Part shown: positions 33,474 through 47,129 of the stretch, in pieces
Layout of the letters: every line of letters begins with the position of its first letter
Position numbering within the stretch: the stretch's first letter is position 1
From: Caldilineaceae bacterium
Lineage (GTDB): Bacteria > Chloroflexota > Anaerolineae > Caldilineales > Caldilineaceae
Assembly: GCA_020433455.1 (NCBI GenBank)
Contig: JAGRCP010000037.1
Location: 1-64,000, forward strand
Direction: 5' to 3'
DNA: 64,000 bases
Notes under the pieces: generated by a model
Database searches by the model: none
The model's input: only the letters and a program-made list of their open reading frames with translations
Told to the model about the DNA's origin: nothing
Program-made: the position numbers and the translations under genes

Positions 33474-33641
33474 GCGCTCCATCCCGCGAACGCTTCGTCA
33501 GTCGGATAAAAATGAATTTCCGCTCAAAACTCCATTGCGCCTGCCGATCTGACTTGTTGCGCCATGCCGCCATACCCGTTACGCATCACTTTTCATTATC
33601 CCAGTTTCCCAAACTCTTTCCCATCACACGGAGGAATAAGT

Positions 33642-35015
33642 ATGAAGCAACGTAAATTATGGAGTCTGCTTAGCTTGCTGTTGATTGCGGCCCTGGCCTT
33701 TACGGCCTGCGCTGCTCCCCCGGCCGGAGATAGCGGCGCGGCAGGTGCTGCGACCGAGGCCCCGGCTGACGAAGCGGCTGCGGATGCCGGCGGCGAGGCG
33801 GCTGCCGCCGACGGCGAGGTTATCGAGATCGAATATTGGCAGTACAATTTTCAGGCGCGTATCGACGCCATGAATGAGCTGATTGCCCAGTTCGAAGCGG
33901 AGAATCCCAATATCAAGGTTATCCACAACTCGGATACGCCCTACGATAACTTCCGGGATAAAATTGCCGCCAGCGTTCCCGCCGGCGTCGGCCCTGACGT
34001 CGTCAGCCTCTTCTACGGCTGGCAAACGGCCTGGCTGGACGCAGGTTACCTGGTGCCGCTGCCCGAAGATGCTTTCCCGCCGGATGAAATCCGCGCCAAC
34101 TTTAGTCCCATGGTTGAGGCCAGCTTTGTGGACGGGACGCTCTACACCCTGCCCACGGCCGTGCGTACTCTGGCCCTTTTCTACAACAAGGATCTCATGG
34201 AGGCCGCCGGTCTCGATCCCGAAAGCCCGCCCACCACGCTGGATGAGCTGAAAGAGCAGGCCGTCCAGTGCACCGTGCGTAACGGCGACGCTTATGAGGT
34301 CTTCGGCTTTGTAGCTAATCCCGCAGGTCAGGGACATCACTGGTTCCGGGAAGTGCTCCTGCGTCAGTTCGGCCAACAGCCCTACAGCGACGACAACCGC
34401 ACCGTGTTGTGGAACGCCAGCGAGGGCGGCTATGAGGCGTGGCACGAGTTCCTCTCCTTCGGCACCGAGCTGGAAACCGGCCGCTCCGACCTCATCACCG
34501 AACCGGATGACTTCCTGGCCGGTAAAGTCTGCTTCCACATTGACGGTTCCTTCCGCCTGGGTTCGATTGCTGAAAATGCCCCGGACCTGAATTTCGGCGT
34601 GGTTGAGATGCCCGAGCATAACGGCATCAAGAGCACCTTCGGCAGCTACTGGACCCACGGTATTACCCAGAAGGCCGCCGCCGATCCGGCGCGCATGGAA
34701 GCCGCTACCAAGTTCCTGCAATTCATCACCACGCCCGAGGCCGGCACGCTTTGGGTCGAGATGGTGGGCGAGTTGCCTGCTCAGCTTGCCGCCGCCGAGA
34801 ATCCCGAATTACTGGCCGATGAGAAGCTGGGCGCATTCGTCGCCGGCTTGCCTTACGCCGTTTCCACCTTCTTCGTGGATGAGAGCAAGGATCGCCAGGC
34901 GATTATCGACGCCAACGACGCAGTCATCCTGACCGGGGCCGACCCGGATGCAGAGCTGGATATCGCCGTCCAGACCGTCCAGGAAATGTACGATGAATTC
35001 TGGGCCGATCGATAG
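33642..35015 (+). CDS. ABC transporter substrate-binding lipoprotein (CUT1, family 1)
   Basis: Extracytoplasmic receptor of a carbohydrate-type importer. The ATG at 33642 has GGAGG 6 nt upstream. The 457-residue product has a lipoprotein signal (LLLIAALAFTAC, lipid on Cys25), an Ala/Glu/Asp-rich linker, and a family-1 binding fold (IEYWQYNFQARIDAMNELIAQFEAENPNIKV ... VGPDVVSLFYGWQTAWLDAGYLVPL) ending in helices (TKFLQFITTPEAGTLW). The acidic, low-complexity linker of about 30 residues is typical of Chloroflexota. The ligand is unknown. A long hairpin separates it from the permeases. Confidence 0.93.
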   Translation: MKQRKLWSLLSLLLIAALAFTACAAPPAGDSGAAGAATEAPADEAAADAGGEAAAADGEVIEIEYWQYNFQARIDAMNELIAQFEAENPNIKVIHNSDTPYDNFRDKIAASVPAGVGPDVVSLFYGWQTAWLDAGYLVPLPEDAFPPDEIRANFSPMVEASFVDGTLYTLPTAVRTLALFYNKDLMEAAGLDPESPPTTLDELKEQAVQCTVRNGDAYEVFGFVANPAGQGHHWFREVLLRQFGQQPYSDDNRTVLWNASEGGYEAWHEFLSFGTELETGRSDLITEPDDFLAGKVCFHIDGSFRLGSIAENAPDLNFGVVEMPEHNGIKSTFGSYWTHGITQKAAADPARMEAATKFLQFITTPEAGTLWVEMVGELPAQLAAAENPELLADEKLGAFVAGLPYAVSTFFVDESKDRQAIIDANDAVILTGADPDAELDIAVQTVQEMYDEFWADR

Positions 35016-35121: not shown

Positions 35122-36027
35122 ATGAATTTAACTATTCGCCAACGCCGAATCGTATGGGCTTACAGCTTTTTGAGCGTAAGCCTGATTTTCTTTCTCTTTA
35201 TTCGCTGGTATCCGACCCTGCTGGCCGTTAACATCAGCTTCCGGGATTGGAATGTTTTTGCCGGTTCCGGAGAGTGGGTGGGGCTGCAAAATTACGCGGA
35301 CATTTGGGAAGACCTGTTCAAGCCGCGCAGCGCCGTACGCGCCGCCTTCTGGAATACGCTGCGCTATGTGCTCTTCGGCGTTCCCCTCCAGCTAGTCCTG
35401 GCGCTGGGCATTGCCATGCTCCTGGGGCAGATTCGCCGCTTTGCCGGTTTTTTTCGGGCCGCTTACTTTGTCCCCTATGTGACCTCGTTTGTCGCGGTTG
35501 CCTTTGTGTGGCGCTGGCTGTACCAGCCTCAGATCGGCCTGCTCAATCAGATCATCACGGGGTTGGGTCTGCCCATGCAGCCGTTCCTGACCAGCCCTTC
35601 TCAGGCGCTGCCCAGCATTACGCTGGTCGCCGTCTGGCGCAGCATCGGCTTTGCCATCATCATCTTTCTCGCCGGGCTGCAACAAATTCCCGACATGTAT
35701 TACGAAGCAGCCCAGATTGACGGCGCTAACCGCTGGCAACTCTTCCGCCGTATTACCTTGCCCCTGCTCAATCCCGTCATCGTCTATCTGGCCGTCCTGC
35801 AGACCATCCAGTTCCTGCGCATGTTCGATCTGGTGCAGAATATGAGCACCGACAATGCCGGCGGCCCCCTTAAGAGCACAACCACCGTCGTGCTGGAGGT
35901 CTACAAGGAGGGCTTCTCCGGCTATAACATGGGCTACGCCGGCGCGCTTACGGTCATTCTCTTTCTCGTCATTCTGCTCATCACCATGCTGCAATTGCGG
36001 GTTCTGTCCCGACGCGTGGATTATTAA
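35122..36027 (+). CDS. ABC transporter permease (CUT1, MalF/UgpA type)
   Basis: First membrane subunit of the importer. The 301-residue product has about six helices. The first follows RQRRIVWAYSFLSVSLIFFLFIRWYP, and the EAA loop that docks the ATPase is seen as YYEAAQIDGANRWQLFRRITLPLLNP at about 194-220. The ribosome site before the ATG at 35122 is weak, and the stem-loop lies directly upstream. It is 21 bp from the second permease. Confidence 0.94.
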   Translation: MNLTIRQRRIVWAYSFLSVSLIFFLFIRWYPTLLAVNISFRDWNVFAGSGEWVGLQNYADIWEDLFKPRSAVRAAFWNTLRYVLFGVPLQLVLALGIAMLLGQIRRFAGFFRAAYFVPYVTSFVAVAFVWRWLYQPQIGLLNQIITGLGLPMQPFLTSPSQALPSITLVAVWRSIGFAIIIFLAGLQQIPDMYYEAAQIDGANRWQLFRRITLPLLNPVIVYLAVLQTIQFLRMFDLVQNMSTDNAGGPLKSTTTVVLEVYKEGFSGYNMGYAGALTVILFLVILLITMLQLRVLSRRVDY

Positions 36028-36048
36028 AGAAACATTCGGAATTTCACT

Positions 36049-36948
36049 ATGACCGTACTTGACTCCAGCGCAGATCGCACACTCGAAGCTGCCGAGCGGC
36101 TTGTTCAGACTCCGGGGCCGCGCCGCGCCTGGTCGTGGGACCTGGCCCTGGTCTATCTGCTGCTGACGCTGGGGGCCATCGTCATGGTGGCGCCCTTTTT
36201 ATGGATGTTGCTCACCAGCATCAAGCCCGCGCCGGAATTGGTGCAGTTTTCTTTTCTGCCCCAGAATCCTACGCTGGAAAATTATGCCAAAGTGTTGACC
36301 ACCAGCAACTTTGGACGCTGGTACTTCAACAGCCTCTTTATTGCAACCATCAGCACCCTGAGCGTGGCGTTTTTCGACAGCCTGGTGGGTTATACCCTCA
36401 ATAAGTTTGAATTTCCGGGCAAGAACATTATTTTCATGGGCATTTTGGCAACCCTCATGATTCCTACGGAAATGCTGATTATTCCCTGGTTTAACATGAG
36501 CGTGCAGTTTGGCTGGAATGCGGGCAATGCCCAATATTGGGGCATCGTCTTCCCCGGCATTATCACTGCGGTGGGCATTTTTCTCATGCGTCAGTTTTTT
36601 GACGGCGTGCCGAATGAACTGCTGGATGCCGCCCGCATTGACGGCGTCAATGAGTTCGGTATTTTCTGGCGCGTGGCCATGCCCCTGGTTAAACCGGCCA
36701 TTGCCGCACTTTGCATCTTCAACTTTATCGGCAACTGGAACGCCTACCTCTGGCCCCTCATCATCGCCAGCGGCCGGGAATTTTATACGCTGCCTGTAGG
36801 GCTCAGCACCTTCATCGGCGAATCCACCACGGCCTGGGAAAAGATCATGACCGGCGCCAGCCTGGCCACCATTCCCCTTCTGCTCATCTTTATCATTTTC
36901 CAGCGCCAGATTATCAAGGGCATCGCCCTCACCGGTCTCAAAGGGTAA
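36049..36948 (+). CDS. ABC transporter permease (CUT1, MalG/UgpE type)
   Basis: Second membrane subunit of the importer. The 299-residue product has a hydrophilic N terminus of about 35 residues and six helices. The EAA loop appears as ELLDAARIDGVNEFGIFWRVAMPLVKPA at about 188-216, and the ending FQRQIIKGIALTGLKG is typical of the MalG group. No ATPase gene follows; the msmK/ugpC-like gene at 50638-51744 is the best candidate in the window. Confidence 0.94.
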   Translation: MTVLDSSADRTLEAAERLVQTPGPRRAWSWDLALVYLLLTLGAIVMVAPFLWMLLTSIKPAPELVQFSFLPQNPTLENYAKVLTTSNFGRWYFNSLFIATISTLSVAFFDSLVGYTLNKFEFPGKNIIFMGILATLMIPTEMLIIPWFNMSVQFGWNAGNAQYWGIVFPGIITAVGIFLMRQFFDGVPNELLDAARIDGVNEFGIFWRVAMPLVKPAIAALCIFNFIGNWNAYLWPLIIASGREFYTLPVGLSTFIGESTTAWEKIMTGASLATIPLLLIFIIFQRQIIKGIALTGLKG

Positions 36949-36994: not shown

Positions 36995-38473
36995 ATGTCC
37001 TCATTTCCGCACCCAATCTACTCACAACACGTCCTCCAGCCGGCCTACCGCGACGCGCAAGCCTATCTCTTCGAGCCCATGCTGGCCGCGCACGAAGCCC
37101 AGGCCGTCATGCTCACCCGCTGCGGCATCATCAGCCGGGAGAACGGAGCCGCATTAGTCCAGGCTGTGGCCGATATTCGCGCCATGGGCCCCGAAGCGCT
37201 GGCTTATCAACCCGGCGTCGAAGACCTTTTCTTTCGCATAGAATCGCTGATTATTGAGCGCGTGGGCCCTGACTACGGCGGCAATCTGCAACTGGCCCGC
37301 AGCCGCAATGACCTGGGCCACGCTCTGGCGCGGATGGCTTTGCGCGGGGATATCCTGATCCTGTATGCCGATCTGCTTTTGCTGCGTCAAGCCGTGCTCG
37401 CATTGGCCCGGCGTCACGTAGAGACGATTATGCCGGGCTACACCCACACCCAGCCCGCTCAGCCCGTCACCTTCGCCCATTACCTGGCCGGCGTCCTCAC
37501 CGCGTTGCAAAAGGACCAGGCGCGCCTGGCTGCCGCCTACGCCAACATGAACGAGTCGCCTTTGGGGGCGGCTGCGTTTACCGGCGTAGGCTTTCCGATC
37601 GATCGCACATTGACGGCCCAACTGCTGGGCTTTGACCGCGTCATCACCAGCACCCAGCACGCCATCGGCGCGGGCGATAACCTGACCGACACGTCCTTTG
37701 CGCTTCAATCTTTGAGTACCAATCTGGGGCGGGTGACCCACGATCTTCTCAACCGGGCCATGCAGGAGACCAACGCCTTGCACGTGGATGACAGCTTTAT
37801 CCAGATCAGCTCCATCATGCCCCAAAAGCGCAATCCCGTGGTCCTGGAGCACCTGCGCGCGCGTCTGAGCCGCGCGCTGGGATATGCCCAGACGGTGGTG
37901 CTCCAATGCCACAATATTCCCTACGGCGATACCCAGGACATCGAGGATGAGATTCTGCCGCCCCTCTACAGTGGACTGGATGCCATGCGGGAGTGCGTGA
38001 CGCTCTACACCGCGTTCTTTGAAACTTTGACGCTGAATGAAGCGCATCTGCGCGCACAGGCCGGCTTCGGCTTTACCACCGCCACCGAATTGGCCGATAC
38101 GCTGGTGCGGGAGGCGGGCTTGCCCTTCCGCCAGGCCCACAAGATCGTGGCGACCATGGTGCAGAACGCGGTCAAAGCCGGATTGGGCAGCGATGCGCTG
38201 ACGTTGGCGATGCTGCAAGCCGCGGCCCGGACGGTGCTGGGCGAGGAATTGGCCTTTAGCGAAGAGCAGTTCACCCGTGCGCTGGACCCGGAACACTTCG
38301 TCGCGGTGCGCACCGTCCCCGGCGGCGTCGCGCCGGAAGCCACCGACTCTCTGCTGGACGAGCTGGCCCAGCAGATTCAGATGGATGAGGAGTGGCTGGA
38401 AGACGCACGCGAGCGTCTTCACCGGGCTGACGCCTATCGTGCACGCGAGGTGCAACTGCTTGTAGAAGGATAG
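36995..38473 (+). CDS. Argininosuccinate lyase family protein
   Basis: A member of the fumarase/aspartase superfamily, which eliminates fumarate or a related group from an amino-linked substrate; cytoplasmic and normally tetrameric. The 492-residue product has the three conserved regions: LARSRNDLGHALARM (about 106-120), GYTHTQPAQPVTFAHY (about 148-163) and the signature loop SSIMPQKRNPVVLEHL (about 271-286). The first differs from true ArgH, which has SRNDQ. It sits at the end of an ABC importer group and not with argG or other arginine genes. It may act on an imported compound, as EDDS lyase does, or be an ArgH; I cannot decide. Confidence 0.85.
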   Translation: MSSFPHPIYSQHVLQPAYRDAQAYLFEPMLAAHEAQAVMLTRCGIISRENGAALVQAVADIRAMGPEALAYQPGVEDLFFRIESLIIERVGPDYGGNLQLARSRNDLGHALARMALRGDILILYADLLLLRQAVLALARRHVETIMPGYTHTQPAQPVTFAHYLAGVLTALQKDQARLAAAYANMNESPLGAAAFTGVGFPIDRTLTAQLLGFDRVITSTQHAIGAGDNLTDTSFALQSLSTNLGRVTHDLLNRAMQETNALHVDDSFIQISSIMPQKRNPVVLEHLRARLSRALGYAQTVVLQCHNIPYGDTQDIEDEILPPLYSGLDAMRECVTLYTAFFETLTLNEAHLRAQAGFGFTTATELADTLVREAGLPFRQAHKIVATMVQNAVKAGLGSDALTLAMLQAAARTVLGEELAFSEEQFTRALDPEHFVAVRTVPGGVAPEATDSLLDELAQQIQMDEEWLEDARERLHRADAYRAREVQLLVEG

Positions 38474-38553: not shown

Positions 38554-40086
38554 TCACTGAGTGGCAGCGGTATGGAAATATAATTCCCCGAAACGGGTGG
38601 TAATTTCCCCCTGAACGCATCTCCCATCCACAACAACGGAGAGCCGCCGCATGACCAGCGGCTTCCAGATGACCTTGTCCGCAATCAGTTTTTGGAGCTG
38701 GAGCAGGACATCTTGGCGCGCCTGAGCATCGGCTGTACCGAGCGCATGAAAGATAAGCTCGGCTGCATCGCTCTCCGGATAGGCGAGAAGATTGCGCGGC
38801 CCCGGCCCCAAAAAAGCGGCAACCGCTGTGTAATCCCACCAGGCGTAGTCAAAAAGCAGCAGGTCGTAGGCATGCCGGCCTGCGATGATCTCGGCGTAGG
38901 GAACCGCCTGGACAGTAACATCAATGCCGACCGCGTGCAATTGGCCCTGAATCTCCTGGGCAAACCGGCGATGGATGGGAGAATCGGCGGCCAATAAGGT
39001 GATGCGTCGTGCCTGCAATGGGCTTAGATCGCTCAAAAGCGCGGCGCTTTGGGCGGGATTGTAGGGGATGCGATATGCCGCGGCGCGTTCGTTATAGCCG
39101 TTGGCCGGCGGCGTAAAGATGGTGTCGGCGGAGACAAAGGCGTCGGAGATGGCCAACGCCTGGCTATCGACGGCCTGGGCGACGGCACGGCGAGCGTCAG
39201 TATTCTGCCATGTCGGGGAGAGGAAATTGAAGCCCAGATAGGTTATGCCGCCCCAGGCATTGTAGGTGTGAAAACGCTCCTCGCTTTCCAATTGCGCCGC
39301 CTCAGCCGGATCATCCAGGCTCAACACGCAGATGCGACCATTTTCCAATTGCCTGAGGCGTTGTTCGGCATCCGCCTCAAAGAGGATCTCCACTTCAGGG
39401 ATGCGCACCTTAATCGGTTTGTCGCCTTCAGGCAGCATGTGGTGATAAGAGGCAAATCGAGGCAAGGTGATGGATTGATTCGGCTTGTAGCGCTCTTGAT
39501 CGAATTGGTAGGGGCCGGTGCAGGCGACAAAGCGTGTTTCCGGCGTGGTGCGGGGTGAAAGAATGCCGCTGTAGGCGTTGGCCAGAACGCGTCGAGGGTA
39601 CTCATAATCGGGGATTGGCAAGGTGATACGCACGCTGCGCTCATCATCCAGCGCCTCGAATTGTACACCGTCCAGCAGCGGTGTGAGCGGAGAGGCCTGT
39701 AATGTTTGCAGGCGTCGAAAACTCTGCACAACCGCGGCCGGGGTCAACGGTTCGCCGTCGTGAAAGTAGATATCCGGTCGCAGGCGGATGATCAATTGGC
39801 GATCGTCTTCACTGTATGCCACATCGTCTTCGGCCAGCCAACCGCGCAGATCACCGGATTGATCTTCCCAAAAGAGCGGCTCGCAGACGTGGCGAAAGAC
39901 TTCGTATGCCACTGGATTTGATGTGCGCTGTGGGTCATAGACAGCCGGATCAAATCCCCAGGCAATGGTTAGCGGTCGTCCGCCCAGATCCGCGATGTGA
40001 AAGACGAACCAGGCGACAATCGCGGCCGCGGCGATTAAAAACCCGCCGATGGTCCAACGACGGGACGGGGATCGATGTCCGCTCAT
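38554..40086 (-). CDS. Membrane-anchored family-5 substrate-binding protein
   Basis: The 510-residue product has one N-terminal helix at about 12-31 (TIGGFLIAAAAIVAWFVFHI) with no lipobox. An extracytoplasmic fold of the peptide/nickel-binding family 5 follows: LTIAWGFDPAVYDPQRTSNPVAYEVFRHVCEPLFW, RLRPDIYFHDGEPLTPAAVVQSFRRL, DARRAVAQAVDSQAL, and a C-terminal LQKLIADKVIWKPL. No permease or ATPase gene is adjacent. Its ATG overlaps the stop of the upstream membrane winged-helix regulator by 4 bp (ATGA), so the two are translationally coupled. This suggests a ligand sensor rather than a transporter part. Confidence 0.85.
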   Translation of the reverse strand: MSGHRSPSRRWTIGGFLIAAAAIVAWFVFHIADLGGRPLTIAWGFDPAVYDPQRTSNPVAYEVFRHVCEPLFWEDQSGDLRGWLAEDDVAYSEDDRQLIIRLRPDIYFHDGEPLTPAAVVQSFRRLQTLQASPLTPLLDGVQFEALDDERSVRITLPIPDYEYPRRVLANAYSGILSPRTTPETRFVACTGPYQFDQERYKPNQSITLPRFASYHHMLPEGDKPIKVRIPEVEILFEADAEQRLRQLENGRICVLSLDDPAEAAQLESEERFHTYNAWGGITYLGFNFLSPTWQNTDARRAVAQAVDSQALAISDAFVSADTIFTPPANGYNERAAAYRIPYNPAQSAALLSDLSPLQARRITLLAADSPIHRRFAQEIQGQLHAVGIDVTVQAVPYAEIIAGRHAYDLLLFDYAWWDYTAVAAFLGPGPRNLLAYPESDAAELIFHALGTADAQARQDVLLQLQKLIADKVIWKPLVMRRLSVVVDGRCVQGEITTRFGELYFHTAATQ

Positions 40087-40823
40087 TGAAGGTCCTGCCC
40101 ATTGATTGCTTCATCCAGATGCAGGCGATAGCCGACGCCATGCACGGTCAGGAGATATTGGGGACTGGACGGAACCGGTTCAATACGCTGGCGCAGCCGA
40201 TAGGCCAATTGGCGCAACCGATCGCGTTGTTCGGGGTAAAGGCCGTCCTGGGCATGGGGTTCTTCCGGCCAGACATAGTTGAAGAGTGACAGAACGGTGA
40301 CCGTCTCGCCCGGCTGGGTGAGCAGACAATCCAGCATCTGTTGTTCTGTGGGCGTCAATGACAAGGCCGACCAATCGGGCTTTGAACTTGCCTCAGTCTG
40401 AATCGTCGCTGATGGCTCTTCCTGATGCGCCAACAGGATTCCCAGCGCCCCCTTTTCGCCATCTTCACACAACGGCGCGGCATAGAGATCCACATCAGCA
40501 TCCGGCCAGGAATTCTCCCTGATCCAGCGCTCTTCAACCGTTGCCTCACTGAGCAGATCCACCAGCGTCTGCCGGGATTGGGATTTATCCAGGCGGCGCC
40601 AAACTTGGTCTGCAGCGCGGTTCAGCGGCTGCAATCCTTTGGCGCGCGTGTAGAAGAAAAGCGGCTGCCGATCCAGCAGTCGGTCCGTCTCGGCCATGGC
40701 AGCGGGCAGCGAAACGCGCCTCATTGCCAATATGGCCAAGCCCAGGATAATCGCCAGGACGATGAGCGCCGCAAGCAAGACCTGCCATGTGGGCGCAGAC
40801 CAATAGAGGGTCGAAGGGATCAT
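40083..40823 (-). CDS. Membrane-bound winged-helix transcriptional regulator
   Basis: The 246-residue product has a transmembrane helix at about 14-35 (QVLLAALIVLAIILGLAILAM). A cytoplasmic region at about 45-130 follows with a PAS-like feel (FFYTRAKGLQPLNRAADQVW ... GALGILLAHQEE). A C-terminal OmpR/PhoB-type winged helix spans about 150-235 (LSLTPTEQQMLDCLL, VTVLSLFNYVWPEE, RLRQLAYRLRQRIEP, YLLTVHGVGYRL). There is no receiver domain or phosphorylatable aspartate. The ATG at 40823 has GGGAGA 7 nt upstream. It forms a two-gene unit with the membrane-anchored binding protein and probably binds the direct repeats at 40887-40914. The order of helix and DNA-binding domain is the reverse of ToxR/CadC. 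Confidence 0.82.
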   Translation of the reverse strand: MIPSTLYWSAPTWQVLLAALIVLAIILGLAILAMRRVSLPAAMAETDRLLDRQPLFFYTRAKGLQPLNRAADQVWRRLDKSQSRQTLVDLLSEATVEERWIRENSWPDADVDLYAAPLCEDGEKGALGILLAHQEEPSATIQTEASSKPDWSALSLTPTEQQMLDCLLTQPGETVTVLSLFNYVWPEEPHAQDGLYPEQRDRLRQLAYRLRQRIEPVPSSPQYLLTVHGVGYRLHLDEAINGQDLQ

Positions 40824-40864
40824 GAACAGTTCTCCCGTGTGAATTCACCACCGTGAAGGTCCAT

Positions 40865-40914
40865 ATCATAGATGTGACAGGACTATTGTCACAAAAATCT
40901 CACAGAGTGTCACA
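40865..40914 (-). promoter_or_regulatory. PhoB-box-like direct repeats and promoter of the regulator-sensor unit
   Basis: Reading the plus strand, TGTCACA (40887-40893), TCTCACA (40898-40904) and TGTCACA (40908-40914) repeat with 11- and 10-bp steps, the helical-turn spacing used by OmpR/PhoB-family proteins. An inverted copy TGTGACA lies at 40873-40879. On the minus strand a -10-like TATGAT lies at 40865-40870, and a poor -35 overlaps the first repeat, as in activator-dependent promoters. Confidence 0.7.
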
Positions 40915-40963
40915 GATTTTTGCGGCGGATCGTGGTACCGTTCGGGGGTCATGCGAATGGGCA

Positions 40964-41069: not shown

Positions 41070-41259
41070 GGGTGTGTTCAAAATCGGTTGAAAGCGCTTG
41101 AAGTCGATCCTGGCCTGTACTAATTGCCTCACCCTGCTTCGCCTCCTCGACGGAGGCTGCGCGTCCTTCTCCATCCAGGTGGAGAGGGACAGCCGTGGCG
41201 CCTGAAGCGCCGCGGCAGGGTGAGGCAATTGACGGCGCCAACTCGTTTTGAACACACCC
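41070..41259. mobile_element. 190-bp MITE-like nested inverted-repeat element
   Basis: Terminal inverted repeats GGGTGTGTTCAAAA (41070-41083) and TTTTGAACACACCC (41246-41259) are perfect over 14 bp. They are flanked by AATTGATTC (41061-41069) and TATTGATTC (41260-41268), a 9-bp target duplication with one mismatch. Inside is a second perfect 15-bp inverted repeat, AATTGCCTCACCCTG at 41122-41136 with its complement at 41216-41230, enclosing three small stem-loops. There is no transposase. It sits 23 bp before the start codon of the next gene. Confidence 0.75.
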
Positions 41260-41282: not shown

Positions 41283-43640
41283 ATGAATACTCAGGCAACT
41301 TCACTGTTCAGAGAACCTCAATTTGATGAAAGGAATGACCATGCGATCCCGACACAGCGTATTTCCGCGGGACTTTTCCTGCTTGCCGTTCTGATTGGCG
41401 CCGGCCTCTTCTCGGTCCGCAACCCCATGGGCGTCTATACGCAACAATCCCCCCTGCCTACAGCGACGATTCCGGCCGATGACGAGCCGGACGTGCCCGC
41501 AGACGACATGACTGCGCCGGAAGGCGCGCTGGTCTGCGCGTCCCGGGAGAAGGAATGCGTCACCTTCGACTATCTGGGCTACGAGACCGGGGCCGACGGC
41601 ACGACCACCATCCAGTTCCAGGTCACCAACCGCTGCAACCAGGAACTGCGCTGGATCGAGATCGTCACCCGCCAGTGGGAACAGATGGAACCGGGCGAGA
41701 ATTCGGTCTACTCGGGCGATCTGGGCGACTACACCGTCACCTGGATCGACGACGCGCCGGACTACCCCGAGCGCAGAGGCTATCGCTTCAAAACTGACTT
41801 CGACACCTTCAGCGGCGGCGCGAGCGACATCGTCTCCGTCCAGGTGGAAAACTTCAACCCCTTCCGCCGGATGCGGATTCGGGCCAGAGTGGGTGATACC
41901 ATCGACCGCGCCGGCGTGCGGCCGGGCAACTTCGCCTGCGGCGTCACCCCCGGACCCACGCCCACGCCGCCGCCTGCGCAGGACATCTGCCTGAGCAAGC
42001 AGGACCGGGGCGTCACCGTGGACTTCTACGGTTACGTTCCCTACCCGGACGGCACAACCGGGCTGACCTTCGGGGTGACTAACGGCAACCAGCGCCAACT
42101 TGACGCGGTGGGGATCAAGGCGGGAGGCTGGAATCGTGTTGCGCCTGCGGACGGCACCGTCTACCGGGGTGTACTGGGCTCCTACAACGTGCGCTGGGTG
42201 ACCCAGAGTGACACGCCCAACCAGGATGCCGTCCGTTTCAAGGCCTGGGGAAGCTGGTTCCAGGGCGGCGCGAGCGACCACTTCACCGTCCGCGTGAACA
42301 ACTTTGACCCGACCAAGCGCATCACCGTCTGGGCCCAGCGCAACGGGCGGATTGAGCTCAAGGGAACCCTGGCGAATCATGACTGCGAGAGGGCCCTGCC
42401 GCCCACGCCGACCGCCACGCCGACATCGCCCAACAGTCCACTGGTGACGCCCACCTCTACACCCATGCCCACACCCACGCCCGGCCCGGTGGAGCCGCTG
42501 GATTTGCAGACCGATGCAGACGGCGACGGCGAACCGGATGCACTGATTGCTGCGCTGAATAAATTGGCAACTTTACATGCCGCGTACCAGGATAACCCTA
42601 ACTCTGATACAGAAGCGGCCCTGGATCAGGCTTACGCAGAGTTTTTTCAAAGTTTGGCGTACAGCGAGCGCACGCTTGAGATTCAGCAAGAGATGGGACA
42701 ACTATACGAGCAGATATTGCAGAGCAATGATGATGCAGAAATTGCCGCATTACAGGCCGAATTTGACCAGTTGGAACGGCAACTATACGACGATTCCAAC
42801 TTCGCTATTGTCGACCGTGTGCTGAGTGAACGGCTGGATGAAGCCATGCGGTCCAAAGTTGGAGCGACGCCGGAAGCCGCTAGTGAGGGACAAGGCGCGG
42901 CAGAACCCCAGCCGCAGTCATCCGTTTCGCCTGCAGCGATTGACACAGCCGATCTGGCATTCCGTGTTCACCTGCCCGTGATCGGCAACATTCGACTTTT
43001 CGAGCCGGATCCGTGCGTCAATGTAGACACGCCTGCCGATTTCAGCACGTTGGAGCGCGGGCACCTGATGTTTTTGCGCACGAACAGCAAACGGCGGAAT
43101 TTTCAGTATGCCAAGAAGTTTACACATATTGGCATTTATGATGGGCTCCAAAGTGATGGTGTTAGCATCAAAGTCTATGAGTCTAACCCTATTGGACCCA
43201 ATGGTGATGATTCCGACGGAGGCCCAGCGTTATGGCCTTATGATCCATGGGAAAACGTAGAAGGATGGTGTGTAGCATTGGGCTATTACGATACAAGCCA
43301 GTTGTCGCTACCTACGGTACAAGACGCTATAGATTGGGCAAAAGGGGAGCTTGGGGTCAATGGCGAGATTCCCTATGTTCAAAATCCGCTGGATTTTTTG
43401 GACAAAGAGTCCAACGAAACCAGTTACTGTTCCAAGCTCATCTGGCAAATCTATGATCATTTGGGGATAAATGTGGATAGCAATGACCTCGCCTATCATA
43501 TCTGGTTTATTAGCCGTTGGGGATCGGTTTTCGGTATTGGTGGAACTGTTAGTGGTGAAGTTGCAGCACGGTTCTTTGTCGCACCGGACGAAATTTTTCG
43601 TCATGACAGCATGATCATCTACTCTGAAGGCCAAAACTAG
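41283..43640 (+). CDS. Large exported protein: two tandem beta domains, dockerin-like segment, NlpC/P60-like C terminus
   Basis: The ATG at 41283 gives 785 residues; the frame is open further upstream but only through the inverted-repeat element. A membrane or signal helix at about 26-45 is followed by two homologous domains (about 75-200 and 235-365). Both share the patterns TFDYLGYE/TVDFYGYV, VY(S/R)G.LG.Y.V.W and GGASD....V.NF(N/D)P. A Pro/Thr linker, a calcium-loop-like DADGDGEPDALIAALNKL and a coiled coil follow. The last 195 residues show GHLMFLRT, FTHIGIYDG and YCSKLIWQIYDHLG. These suggest a permuted NlpC/P60 (YiiX-like) cysteine hydrolase with His in the first block and Cys at about 715. 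The C-terminal DNA is more AT-rich than the N-terminal part. Confidence 0.7.
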   Translation: MNTQATSLFREPQFDERNDHAIPTQRISAGLFLLAVLIGAGLFSVRNPMGVYTQQSPLPTATIPADDEPDVPADDMTAPEGALVCASREKECVTFDYLGYETGADGTTTIQFQVTNRCNQELRWIEIVTRQWEQMEPGENSVYSGDLGDYTVTWIDDAPDYPERRGYRFKTDFDTFSGGASDIVSVQVENFNPFRRMRIRARVGDTIDRAGVRPGNFACGVTPGPTPTPPPAQDICLSKQDRGVTVDFYGYVPYPDGTTGLTFGVTNGNQRQLDAVGIKAGGWNRVAPADGTVYRGVLGSYNVRWVTQSDTPNQDAVRFKAWGSWFQGGASDHFTVRVNNFDPTKRITVWAQRNGRIELKGTLANHDCERALPPTPTATPTSPNSPLVTPTSTPMPTPTPGPVEPLDLQTDADGDGEPDALIAALNKLATLHAAYQDNPNSDTEAALDQAYAEFFQSLAYSERTLEIQQEMGQLYEQILQSNDDAEIAALQAEFDQLERQLYDDSNFAIVDRVLSERLDEAMRSKVGATPEAASEGQGAAEPQPQSSVSPAAIDTADLAFRVHLPVIGNIRLFEPDPCVNVDTPADFSTLERGHLMFLRTNSKRRNFQYAKKFTHIGIYDGLQSDGVSIKVYESNPIGPNGDDSDGGPALWPYDPWENVEGWCVALGYYDTSQLSLPTVQDAIDWAKGELGVNGEIPYVQNPLDFLDKESNETSYCSKLIWQIYDHLGINVDSNDLAYHIWFISRWGSVFGIGGTVSGEVAARFFVAPDEIFRHDSMIIYSEGQN

Positions 43641-43716: not shown

Positions 43717-44823
43717 ATGAGCAAAACATCCATTCGCTACGTGGCTATCATGCTAATCTGCATCTTAACCCTGTCAGGATGCAGTTCTCCCGTTGGGTCA
43801 TTTTTAGCCCCAAAACCTGAATTGCCGGACCGTATTCTCTATGTTGTGGCGACCGGCATTGAACAAAATGGGCGCTTTCATAATGAGTTGGTGCTGGTCG
43901 ATCCTGAGCAATGGGCTGTTCTTCGGCGTACGCGCTTGAAAGTCGTCGACAGCGTGTTTTACAGCATTAATGAAGACTCCTTGGGGCGGATTTGGATTCC
44001 GTATCACGGTGCACCCGGCGCCCCCGGCAATACAGTTGCAATTTTTAATCGGGATGGCTCACATCTGAGTAATGTTGAAACATGTGGTCGCCCTCATTCT
44101 GTCTATTTTATCGAAAATTTCGCCTGTGTCATTTGTGCACATAACGGTTTTTTCGGACGCGTTACCATGATCGAACTCGACACGTTGGATACTGTACGAG
44201 AACTGGAATTAGAGGGAAACGAAGGATTCTTTCTCACGGCAACGGCTACAGATGGCCGAATAGTCATCGTGTGGGGGGCTGATAAGCTACCTGTCTTGTA
44301 TATATTAGGCAGCAGTCAACCGGATACCGTGCCTGAAACCGTTAATTACCGAGTAGCCACTCAAAGTATTCTGCCAATCCGTGAGGAACAATTCATCGTC
44401 CTAAACGAGGGGAGCAACAGAATAGACTATGATGAAATTATTGACGGTCTGTTCCTCGATATCTCAGAAGGTGATATGCAAGTCAAACCATTCGCTCTAC
44501 CCGTACGAAGTCCGCTTTGGGGCGTGATTAGTGACAATATGTTGTTCTCTTATCACAATAGTAGGTACGCAGATCCGAAAGGAACAGCCGAAAGAGCAAT
44601 GTCACGTCTTGATTTGGAGACGGGAGATACTGACCTATGGCCCCTGCCGGATAACTGGGATGCACGCGATCTGGAAATCATCGACGGCAGAATCATGCTC
44701 ACATGGCGACGATCCAATGATCCTGAAGCCAGTGGCATCTACGAATTTGACCCCGAGACGGGCAGCCTGGAACAGGTGATGCAGTTGCCCGGAGCGACTC
44801 TCATGTTGCCGCCGGATGACTAA
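43717..44823 (+). CDS. Lipoprotein of the local beta-propeller-like family, copy 1
   Basis: The 368-residue product has a lipoprotein signal ending in LTLSGC (lipid on about Cys22). The mature part reads as repeated blades with recurring motifs: RILYVVATGIEQNGRFHNELVLVDPE, SLGRIWIPYHGAPGAPGN, VAIFNRDGSHL, MIELDTLDTV and a closing GIYEFDPETGSL. This is consistent with a six- or seven-bladed propeller of NHL/SMP-30 style, but no catalytic residues are evident and I do not know the function. Its stop overlaps the start of copy 2 by 8 bp (ATGACTAA). The coding DNA is AT-richer than most of the window. Confidence 0.75.
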   Translation: MSKTSIRYVAIMLICILTLSGCSSPVGSFLAPKPELPDRILYVVATGIEQNGRFHNELVLVDPEQWAVLRRTRLKVVDSVFYSINEDSLGRIWIPYHGAPGAPGNTVAIFNRDGSHLSNVETCGRPHSVYFIENFACVICAHNGFFGRVTMIELDTLDTVRELELEGNEGFFLTATATDGRIVIVWGADKLPVLYILGSSQPDTVPETVNYRVATQSILPIREEQFIVLNEGSNRIDYDEIIDGLFLDISEGDMQVKPFALPVRSPLWGVISDNMLFSYHNSRYADPKGTAERAMSRLDLETGDTDLWPLPDNWDARDLEIIDGRIMLTWRRSNDPEASGIYEFDPETGSLEQVMQLPGATLMLPPDD

Positions 44824-45964
44824 ATACGGCACTCGTTGCGCCTGCATGCTGTGGATAGCGTGCATCATGATGTTGATCTCCGGCTGTCGCTGGCCATTCG
44901 GTCTGTCAGATTCCCTGGCTATCCATCAATCGTCTCAGGAAAACGTCCAGGTTCCCGATTCCCCGCTCTATGTGGTGGCGACCGGTCCTGAATCGGTGTC
45001 AGGGCTCACGAACGAGTTGCTTCTGTTGAACTCTGAAACCGGAAAGACGCTGAATCGTACTCGTTTATTGAAGAACGGCGTCATCATTTGGCAGATGAGC
45101 AGCGACCCTGACGGAAGAATCTGGATCGGCTATTACGGCACGCCGGGAAATTCCTCCAACAGCGTCGATGTTTTTTCGCCGGAAGGGTATCATCTGCAGA
45201 CCCTATACACCTGTGCGAATCCCGGTTACGGCATCCATTTTGCCGACGGTTACGCCTTTGTTGCCTGTGGGGGCAACGGGTTTAAAGGCGGCGTTTCGAT
45301 TGTCGACCTGGAGTCGCTTGAGGTAATCGAATTTATCGAGTTGAGTGCTGAGCCGTCCTTCTTGCTGCTTGCGTCTGCACAAAATGATGACTCACTCGCT
45401 TTTTTTGGCAGTAGTCAAACTCATTCGACATTATTTCTTCTTTACACTGAGCCGTTCAAGATAACAAAAGCTGAAGAGATCTACGGATCGGCGAGTCCTC
45501 GAGAAGTTATCGGCGATGGCAATGAGTTTTTTTTGCTCAACACCGCAAGTTCATTGCATCCGGATGATCCAAAGGATGTACGAATTCTGTCACCAACTGA
45601 GTCTGTTTTGGTTGCGGATGTCTCATTGCCGGCGCGAAGCCCTCTCTGGGGGGCAATCAATGATCAAAAATTATATTCCTTTCACAGTTCTCAGGGGGCA
45701 ATCGTTGGAGATAGCCCAGAGCGCGCGATTTCCAGTTACGACCTGATCACAAGTGAAATGGATCTGTGGCTCTTGCCCGATAATTGGGACGCATCCGACA
45801 TGGCGGTCATCAACGACCAAATTGTGCTCGTTGGTCAACCGTCCGTGACAGCCGAAAGTGACCCCATTCATGGGCTCTACGCCTTCGATCCGGAGAGCGG
45901 GGAACTCTCCCTGCTGTACGAGATCCCCGGCGCCCGACTGGTCTTGCAGCCTGCTGGTGAATAG
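44816..45964 (+). CDS. Lipoprotein of the local beta-propeller-like family, copy 2
   Basis: The 382-residue paralogue of the preceding gene has its lipobox at LISGC (about residue 23). It has the same landmarks: LYVVATGPESVSGLTNELLLLN, DPDGRIWIGYYGTPGNSSNSVDVFSPEGYHL, CANPGYGIHFADGYAFVACGGNGFKGG, SLPARSPLWGAI and GLYAFDPESGEL. Identity to copy 1 is moderate, so the duplication is old. It overlaps copy 1 by 8 bp and is likely co-transcribed with copies 1 and 3. Confidence 0.75.
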   Translation: MTKYGTRCACMLWIACIMMLISGCRWPFGLSDSLAIHQSSQENVQVPDSPLYVVATGPESVSGLTNELLLLNSETGKTLNRTRLLKNGVIIWQMSSDPDGRIWIGYYGTPGNSSNSVDVFSPEGYHLQTLYTCANPGYGIHFADGYAFVACGGNGFKGGVSIVDLESLEVIEFIELSAEPSFLLLASAQNDDSLAFFGSSQTHSTLFLLYTEPFKITKAEEIYGSASPREVIGDGNEFFLLNTASSLHPDDPKDVRILSPTESVLVADVSLPARSPLWGAINDQKLYSFHSSQGAIVGDSPERAISSYDLITSEMDLWLLPDNWDASDMAVINDQIVLVGQPSVTAESDPIHGLYAFDPESGELSLLYEIPGARLVLQPAGE

Positions 45965-46007
45965 GCGGCGAGGGCGGTTGCGTGGGGTAAATGATCTGGA
46001 AATCCGA

Positions 46008-47129
46008 ATGCCTGCGCAACGACTCATCACATTCTGGGCGCTGCTGTTGTCGGCAAGCATCTTGGCGATTGGATGTAGTCCAGAGCTTCATATCACCAAA
46101 ACAGGACTCACTACGACTGAGCGCTTCAACGAAACCAGCGATCGACTCTATGTCGTTTCCATGTTCGTAGAGACGCGGCGAGGACACAAAAATGAACTGG
46201 TCACACTGGACCCGGAATCATACGAGACGATCAACCGCAGTGACTTGGTCTATGGGACGCTCGTCTTCAAATTTAGCCAGGATCCTCAAGGGCGGATCTG
46301 GACCGGCTATTCGGGAACGCCGGAGAACTACAACACGAAACGAGTTGATATATTTGACCATAACGGCTCTCATGTAAAGACGCTGGAACCCTGTAGTTGG
46401 CCCGACAAAGAAATCACCTTCGCGGCCGGATGGGCCTTTATTCCGTGCTACCTCAACGGATTTCATGCGCGGATGGTGGTTGTGGACTTGAGCTCATTGG
46501 AGATTGTGAAGACGATTGAGTTGGAGGCTGAGCCGCGTTTCTCACTACTCGCAGCTGCAGCAACAGAAGAAACGGTTTTGGTGGCCGGAGGGAGCGATAC
46601 ACATGGGACTTTGGTAATGATTGATCCGCACTCGATGGAAATCAGTCAGACTATTGATGTCTATGGCGGAATAAGCGTAAGAACCATTGTCGTACACGAT
46701 GGTCTGTTTTACATGCTCAATAGAGGAAGCCATCGAAGCCCGGAGAACCCACTTGATCTGCACATCGTGACGCCGGGCGATTCGCCCACAGTCACATCGC
46801 ATCAATTGGCCGCCAGGTCACCAGTGTTCGGATTCATTGAGGGAGATCAACTATGGGCATATCATGATCCGGCGATCAGCGGAGATAGCGGTTCCCGCGC
46901 GATTTCTCGTTATGACTTACTCACCGGCGAGACAGAGTTATGGCCTCTGCCGGATTATTGGTGGGCAGGTGATATGGCATGGATTGACGGCAAGATTATT
47001 CTGACAAGACGGCATTCGCTCAATCCTGATGAAACCGATGGGCTCTACGAATTCAACCCGGAGACCGGCGAATTAATTCAATGGCTTGAACTGGAAGGCG
47101 CGCAGCTGTTGTTGGTGCCGGATGAATAG
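46008..47129 (+). CDS. Lipoprotein of the local beta-propeller-like family, copy 3
   Basis: I choose the ATG at 46008 because it places a lipoprotein signal (LLLSASILAIGC, lipid on about Cys23) at the N terminus; the open frame extends upstream only into copy 2. The 373-residue product shares the family landmarks: LYVVSMFVETRRGHKNELVTLDPE, DPQGRIWTGYSGTPENYN, VDIFDHNGSHVKTLEPC, AFIPCYLNGFHARM and GLYEFNPETGELIQ. Only 43 bp separate it from copy 2. Function unknown; surface-exposed at the outer face of the membrane by its lipid anchor. Confidence 0.75.
   Translation: MPAQRLITFWALLLSASILAIGCSPELHITKTGLTTTERFNETSDRLYVVSMFVETRRGHKNELVTLDPESYETINRSDLVYGTLVFKFSQDPQGRIWTGYSGTPENYNTKRVDIFDHNGSHVKTLEPCSWPDKEITFAAGWAFIPCYLNGFHARMVVVDLSSLEIVKTIELEAEPRFSLLAAAATEETVLVAGGSDTHGTLVMIDPHSMEISQTIDVYGGISVRTIVVHDGLFYMLNRGSHRSPENPLDLHIVTPGDSPTVTSHQLAARSPVFGFIEGDQLWAYHDPAISGDSGSRAISRYDLLTGETELWPLPDYWWAGDMAWIDGKIILTRRHSLNPDETDGLYEFNPETGELIQWLELEGAQLLLVPDE

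Follow-up and report, generated by a model that had tools for sequence, protein, structure and literature searches.

A conserved pair of a membrane-anchored family-5 binding protein and a membrane-tethered winged-helix regulator in Chloroflexota, a candidate transmembrane signalling cassette

The gene pair and its topology

The window, i.e., the whole stretch of 64,000 nucleotides analysed here, comes from contig C109 of a Chloroflexota-type draft genome (G000). Its minus strand carries two joined genes, one for a transcription regulator and one for a solute-binding protein (SBP), as follows.

40083..40823, minus strand: membrane-tethered regulator of 246 aa, with a transmembrane helix, a PAS-fold domain and an OmpR/PhoB-type winged helix in that order (ORF, Trans_reg_C, AF2)
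40722..40790, minus strand: predicted transmembrane helix of the regulator, residues 12–34, N-terminus outside (positive-inside rule, helix in the model)
40413..40688, minus strand: predicted PAS-fold domain, residues 46–137 (VIA-align to 7jl6; no Pfam match)
40122..40364, minus strand: winged-helix DNA-binding domain, residues 154–234 (Trans_reg_C of Pfam, KdpE structural match)
40083..40086, minus strand: ATGA shared by the stop of the regulator gene and the start of the SBP gene (ORF calls)
38554..40086, minus strand: membrane-anchored family-5 SBP of 510 aa (ORF, SBP_bac_5 E=5.5e-46)
39994..40059, minus strand: predicted transmembrane anchor of the SBP, residues 10–31, N-terminus inside (positive-inside rule, helix in the model)

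An earlier note on this DNA had described a winged-helix protein with an N-terminal membrane helix and without a receiver domain, the gene of which overlaps by 4 bp that of a membrane-anchored family-5 binding protein. This description holds throughout. The minus-strand reading frames 40823..40083 and 40086..38554 are joined by ATGA. The Pfam search of the regulator finds Trans_reg_C at residues 154–234 (E=1.7e-13) and no Response_reg match, i.e., no receiver domain with a phospho-acceptor Asp. The SBP matches SBP_bac_5 (E=5.5e-46). Both proteins carry a single N-terminal hydrophobic helix and lack a lipobox Cys. Convergent to the pair, a gene for an argininosuccinate-lyase-type enzyme (36995–38473; argH model passed) ends a family-1 sugar ABC operon.

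The AF2 model of the regulator (mean pLDDT 80, 16 sequences in the alignment) shows, from the N- to the C-terminus, helix 12–34, a short helix, an alpha/beta domain (residues 55–132), a low-confidence link and the winged helix. VIA-align matches residues 46–137 with the PAS domain of SrrB (7jl6; Z 10.8, 88 residues, rmsd 3.7 Å, 7% identity). This segment, which has no PAS match among the Pfam sequence profiles and had been missed in the earlier note, is thus modelled as a PAS fold. Residues 147–236 superimpose on KdpE (4kny; Z 13.3, 83 residues, rmsd 1.6 Å), and the nearest winged helixes are those of KdpE, RpaA, RegX3 and PhoB. Among NCBIfam models the nearest are KdpE, RpaB and MtrA, all far below cut-off.

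All six regulators compared have a single membrane helix, of mean hydropathy 2.2–3.2, in the same protein as the DNA-binding domain. The 10–14 residues ahead of the helix are free of Lys and Arg, and the 15 residues after it hold 2–4 of them (6/6). By this charge pattern the N-terminus is predicted to lie outside and all domains inside in each of the six homologues. Immediately N-terminal to the helix is a conserved YW-x-A/V-P-x-W motif. Because only this motif would be exposed, with no room for a ligand domain of the regulator's own, an outside signal would have to reach the regulator via a partner.

The SBP is predicted to have the opposite topology: 2–4 Lys/Arg precede the anchor helix and 1–2 follow it in 6/6 SBPs, which places the N-terminus inside and the binding domain outside the cell. 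Its AF2 model (pLDDT 87) shows helix 10–31 followed, from about residue 35, by the entire fold of a family-5 binding protein, and matches 5u4o (Z 38.4, 452 residues, rmsd 3.2 Å). The nearest NCBIfam models are NikA/GsiB-like, all far below cut-off. No paired SBP has a Cys in its first 50 residues (6/6), and a lipobox is found in 0/6 of them vs 17/19 of the other SBPs of these bacteria. Exactly four Cys occupy equivalent positions in 6/6; in the window SBP they are residues 68, 189, 253 and 490.

Distribution of the pair and the question of a transporter

The pair is found in about five further Chloroflexota genomes, one of which has a frameshifted regulator and another the SBP only. The loci besides the window are in G321 (Bse_26), G100 (USDE_maxbin.019), G235 (T2_metabat1), Anaerolineales MAG_39, AL-N1 and G362. 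G321 and G100 share the ATGA overlap, and in G235 a 1-nt gap separates regulator and SBP. In AL-N1 (L086 3282–5893) the regulator gene and a neighbouring secreted-protein gene are each broken into several reading frames; since both are broken together, indel or assembly errors are the probable cause. In G362, the N-terminal part of the SBP is missing beside a transposase gene. G000 itself appears to have a second copy, split over two contig ends: the first 151 residues of a regulator run off contig C156, and an SBP, from about residue 145 on, sits at the end of contig C69. We infer that these halves belong to one second copy of the pair.

These relatives emerged in steps. Single-sequence searches with the N-terminal half of the regulator in 100 relatives found only G000, and a two-sequence, class-wide profile was needed. 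This profile, of regulator residues 1–150 from the window and the second copy, added 3 genomes with relatives among 396 of the class. The further pair loci came from an SBP profile, the first contig scan with the two-sequence regulator profile having given none. A six-sequence profile run on 400 genomes across the phylum, with few candidates scored per genome, found only G000. Comparing regulators with SBPs gives a mirror-distance correlation of 0.69, which at ten comparisons is too small a sample to count.

In the SBP profile search of the 396 genomes, clade members score 640–920 bits vs at most 267 bits for all other SBPs. The clade is present in 5 of these genomes, and SBP identity to the window SBP is 37–46% among the pair loci. 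The SBP falls far short of the cut-off of the SgrR model (E=0.018). By these sequence comparisons the paired SBPs are a clade of their own, with a predicted anchor of the uncleaved type in place of a lipobox. The closest other SBPs (25–29% identity) were considered as partners and rejected, as those examined adjoin DppB/C-type permeases and have lipoboxes. The best winged-helix matches likewise failed as orthologues, those examined being ordinary PhoB-type regulators beside Pst and PhoR genes.

The earlier note had stated that no permease genes lie nearby. In the window this needs correction, as two family-1 (MalF/G-type) sugar permeases are encoded at 35122–36948, in an operon with their own lipoprotein SBP (33564–35015); they are unrelated to the family-5 SBP. 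What stands is the lack of Opp/Dpp permease and ATPase genes beside the pair, and it holds at every locus by inspection of the translated ORFs, a part of which were Pfam-searched. The pair recurs in distant Chloroflexota, at no locus beside an Opp/Dpp transporter. In G100, OppD/F-type ATPase genes are found about 8 kb from the pair (L069 16341–19001), non-adjacent, on the opposite strand and behind genes for a glycosidase and a GntR-type regulator.

One alternative assigns the two proteins to separate tasks. The PAS domain, the best structural match of which comes from a redox/heme-sensing kinase, could sense an internal signal (redox, a ligand or the membrane state) and control a secreted-protein gene, with the SBP merely co-transcribed and feeding an orphan ABC transporter elsewhere. 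Other family-5 SBP genes are common in these genomes, in keeping with such a role. However, the separate clade, the anchor instead of a lipobox and the constant lack of adjoining Opp/Dpp genes speak against an orphan-transporter SBP, and a gene overlap conserved across distant genomes speaks against mere co-transcription. We regard this alternative as unlikely.

A repeat array facing exported-protein genes

Upstream of the pair, and divergent from it, the window contains the following features.

40865..40894, minus strand: weak sigma-70-like promoter, TTGTGA-18-TATGAT, for transcription of the pair; overlaps the first repeat (consensus match only, 9/12)
40889..40914, plus strand: candidate operator of three direct TCACA repeats (40889, 40900 and 40910), sense toward the gene at 41283 (repeat scans)
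40932..40941, plus strand: predicted extended -10 element GTGGTACCGT of the target promoter (conserved GTGGTA position)
41070..41259, no strand assigned: MITE-like element in the target-gene leader, not part of the system (21-nt terminal inverted repeats)
41283..43640, plus strand: probable target, an exported protein of 785 aa; hydrophobic segment at the N-terminus, region resembling YiiX/C92 amidases at the C-terminus (ORF, Peptidase_C92)

The TCA[C/T]A core was first noticed in MAG_39 and G362, where rows of TCATAA-like units, one helical turn apart, lie upstream of a secreted-protein gene; the arrays of these two genomes are therefore not independent evidence. When all loci were scanned for at least three TCA[C/T]A at 10–11 bp, only pair-adjacent sites were found, and shuffled sequences gave none. 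The sites are at 40889–40914 on the plus strand of the window and in G321, G235 (at two promoters), AL-N1, MAG_39 and G362; arrays in G100 and in the second copy appear once one mismatch is allowed.

The array is rare elsewhere. Genome-wide, exact arrays of 10/10 spacing occur solely beside the pair in G235, G321 and G362, and there are none in five genomes that lack the pair. With one mismatch, G100 and G000 have one match each, beside the pair and beside the second copy, respectively. In G235 several one-mismatch matches lie away from the pair in an intergenic repeat of the CACAGATT type; recurrent CACAGATTNTCACAGATTTTCACA intergenic repeats, partly resembling the operator unit, are seen on several contigs of that genome. 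The exact spacing of the window repeats occurs once in the G000 genome and in none of the shuffled 64-kb windows. In a leave-one-out analysis with an ungapped model, the array ranks first at each locus (in G235, it is among four top sites, overlapping or duplicate). With training on the other loci, an ungapped model does not recover the window site, owing to its one 11-bp spacing. If spacings of 10 or 11 are allowed, the window site ranks first in the 64 kb, with a score that, taken alone, is within the range of shuffled maxima.

The position of the array relative to a -10 element is also shared. In the window, G321, G100 and G235, the distance from the first base of the last repeat to that of GTGGTA is 22 nt; the element is missing at four loci (the second copy, AL-N1, MAG_39 and G362). 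The identical distance in four genomes indicates that the window repeats belong to a plus-strand promoter, and we take the putative GTGGTA promoter element as the decisive point for the window array. A search of 150 genomes for the last two repeats combined with TTGTGGTA gave a single genome, the pair-carrying G100, where the match is free of mismatches.

These results bear on the earlier note's claim that the regulator controls its own operon through three TGTCACA-type heptamers, spaced 11 and 10 bp and overlapping the -35 region of the pair. The repeats exist, and read on the plus strand they are three TCACA units; their assignment has to change. The note had named lack of conservation upstream of orthologous pairs as the test against it, and TGTGACA heptamers are in fact absent upstream of the five other regulator genes, for which reason they were dropped as the pair's own conserved operator. 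Autoregulation with no dedicated neighbouring target does draw on the weak minus-strand promoter of the pair, a 9/12 match that does overlap the repeats. Against it, the orientation of the array and its spacing to the -10 element match the secreted-protein gene in the other genomes, and it is at the promoter of this neighbouring gene, on the other strand in the window, that the array is conserved. Autoregulation as the sole function is therefore highly improbable; additional self-control of the pair in the window is possible.

Another OmpR/PhoB-type response regulator might bind the array, with the pair merely nearby. The array does resemble PhoB-type direct repeats, and the closest winged helixes belong to PhoB-like regulators encoded beside Pst and PhoR genes. 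Such a regulator would not, however, lead one to expect exact arrays beside the pair alone in three genomes and none in the five pair-less ones, nor the composite promoter in a single genome, which carries the pair. We give this possibility little weight.

The array is directed at an exported-protein gene at every locus, and the target genes differ between genomes. From its orientation and promoter, the window array probably serves the divergent gene 41283–43640, the product of which matches Peptidase_C92 at E=3.7e-5, below the curated cut-off. The array faces a gene for a PA14-domain protein in G321, for two small exported proteins in G100, and for a TPR protein and others in G235. In AL-N1, MAG_39 and G362 it faces a secreted family with a DWDDD motif. 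Strong matches to this family occur in 2 of 396 genomes (G235 and G362), both beside a pair-type SBP, and it also adjoins the SBP clade in AL-N1 and MAG_39. Its YDWDDD motif is invariant; the family has no match in Pfam and so far has been seen only beside the pair (L087 2657–3997, L093 2216–3526, L070 3–875 and L086 3282–4614). The neighbouring proteins of G321 and of the second copy seemed to resemble this family but gave no significant HMM match.

Several other features adjoin these genes. The MITE-like element, with terminal inverted repeats GGGTGTGTTCAAAA... and an inner hairpin, sits between the target promoter and the start codon; a long TTG-started ORF (41124) begins inside it. On contig C69 of G000 (L054 6868–8158), an IS630-like transposase gene lies between the second-copy array and the gene for an exported 619-aa protein, and possibly cuts that gene from its promoter. 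Downstream, three paralogous genes in tandem (43717–47129) lie on the strand of the target gene and may share its promoter; their products are lipoprotein-like and, by eye, propeller-like.

Proposed circuit and relation to known systems

The earlier note's central idea, an anchored binding protein coupled to a tethered regulator without a transporter, is well supported by the conservation and translational coupling of the pair, the opposite topologies and the absence of Opp/Dpp-type genes; control of the pair's own operon is the part that falls. These features, together with the PAS, winged-helix and SBP folds and with the operator and its position, come from sequence or from models. We consider it likely that the pair is a two-gene transmembrane signalling cassette, in which an SBP sensor and a tethered regulator activate the adjacent exported-protein gene.

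The proposed circuit is as follows. The SBP, anchored by its helix with the binding domain outside, would capture a small extracellular ligand. Given the family, a peptide is likeliest; the predicted ligands of family-5 SBPs are nearly all di-, tri- or oligopeptides (PMC9602780). Through contacts in the membrane and on its outer face, binding would be signalled to the YW-x-A/V-P-x-W N-terminus and helix of the regulator, and the helix would relay it via the PAS domain to the winged helix at the C-terminus. The winged helix would bind the row of TCA[C/T]A direct repeats, which are spaced by one helical turn, with the final repeat over the -35 region. Occupancy of the array would then activate the extended -10 promoter, as PhoB-type activators do, and the exported protein would be made.

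A broader proposal is more tentative, and we hold it with some doubt: an orphan peptide-type SBP switching a tethered factor of reverse topology, as a separate lineage independent of the ToxR/VtrA type, each genome dedicating one or two operators to a single exported product. Such a system might even be an autocrine loop, pieces of the exported product serving as the ligand.

If the proposed circuit is correct, SBPs, known as triggers of chemoreceptors, kinases and cyclases, also directly drive membrane-tethered transcription factors, and a minimal circuit from sensor to promoter consists of two proteins and one operator. It would also point to more than one origin of co-component signalling, with opposite topologies. 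Since the operator is defined, a laboratory host would allow binding and contact to be tested straight away.

The pair can be compared with several known systems. The regulator, with Trans_reg_C and one membrane helix in 6/6 homologues, is a transmembrane transcription regulator (TTR) in the sense of a DNA-binding domain and a transmembrane helix in one protein (PMC10269533). By contrast, only one feature of an Opp/Dpp-type binding protein is found in its partner, namely SBP_bac_5 (E=5.5e-46); adjacent permease and ATPase genes and a lipobox are lacking. Among the open-access papers searched, no case of a tethered transcription factor driven by an SBP came up.

SBPs are known to stimulate chemoreceptors, sensor kinases, cyclases and Ser/Thr kinases across the membrane (PMC9602780). 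As proposed for the pair, it is the SBP and not the receptor that binds the ligand. Those receptors have an enzymatic or chemotactic output, whereas the partner here is a transcription factor with almost no outside domain. SgrR/DsvR also combine a DNA-binding domain and SBP_bac_5 in one regulatory unit. SgrR, however, is one polypeptide, an N-terminal HTH followed by the SBP_bac_5 domain (PMC13060122), whereas the pair consists of two membrane proteins with these domains on opposite sides of the membrane. With the OmpR/PhoB response regulators, the pair shares the winged helix and a direct-repeat operator with one repeat over the -35 region. These regulators have a receiver, in place of which the pair's regulator has a membrane helix and a PAS domain, and the repeats of its candidate operator are mostly 10 bp apart.

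The closest likeness in function is to the co-component systems, i.e., ToxR/ToxS, VtrA/VtrC and TcpP/TcpH (PMC9214523). There, too, the gene for the transcription factor precedes, and often overlaps, that of a sensor tethered to the membrane and facing outside; the proteins are single-pass, the winged helix is of the OmpR type, and a signal borne by contact in the membrane, as we infer for the pair, is the common principle. The domain order differs. In co-component regulators an N-terminal DNA-binding domain is followed by the helix and a real periplasmic domain, whereas in the pair's regulator the helix comes first, with 10–14 residues outside, the PAS domain follows and the winged helix is last. 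The earlier note had set this topology apart from that of ToxR and CadC; against ToxR the contrast holds, as the helix precedes the PAS domain and the winged helix in models and homologues. The sensors differ as well, that of co-component systems being lipocalin-like and that of the pair a family-5 SBP of about 475 residues. The two proteins of a co-component system form an obligate physical complex. Thus, the pair would function like a co-component system but, because of its domain order and its partner's fold, falls outside that superfamily.
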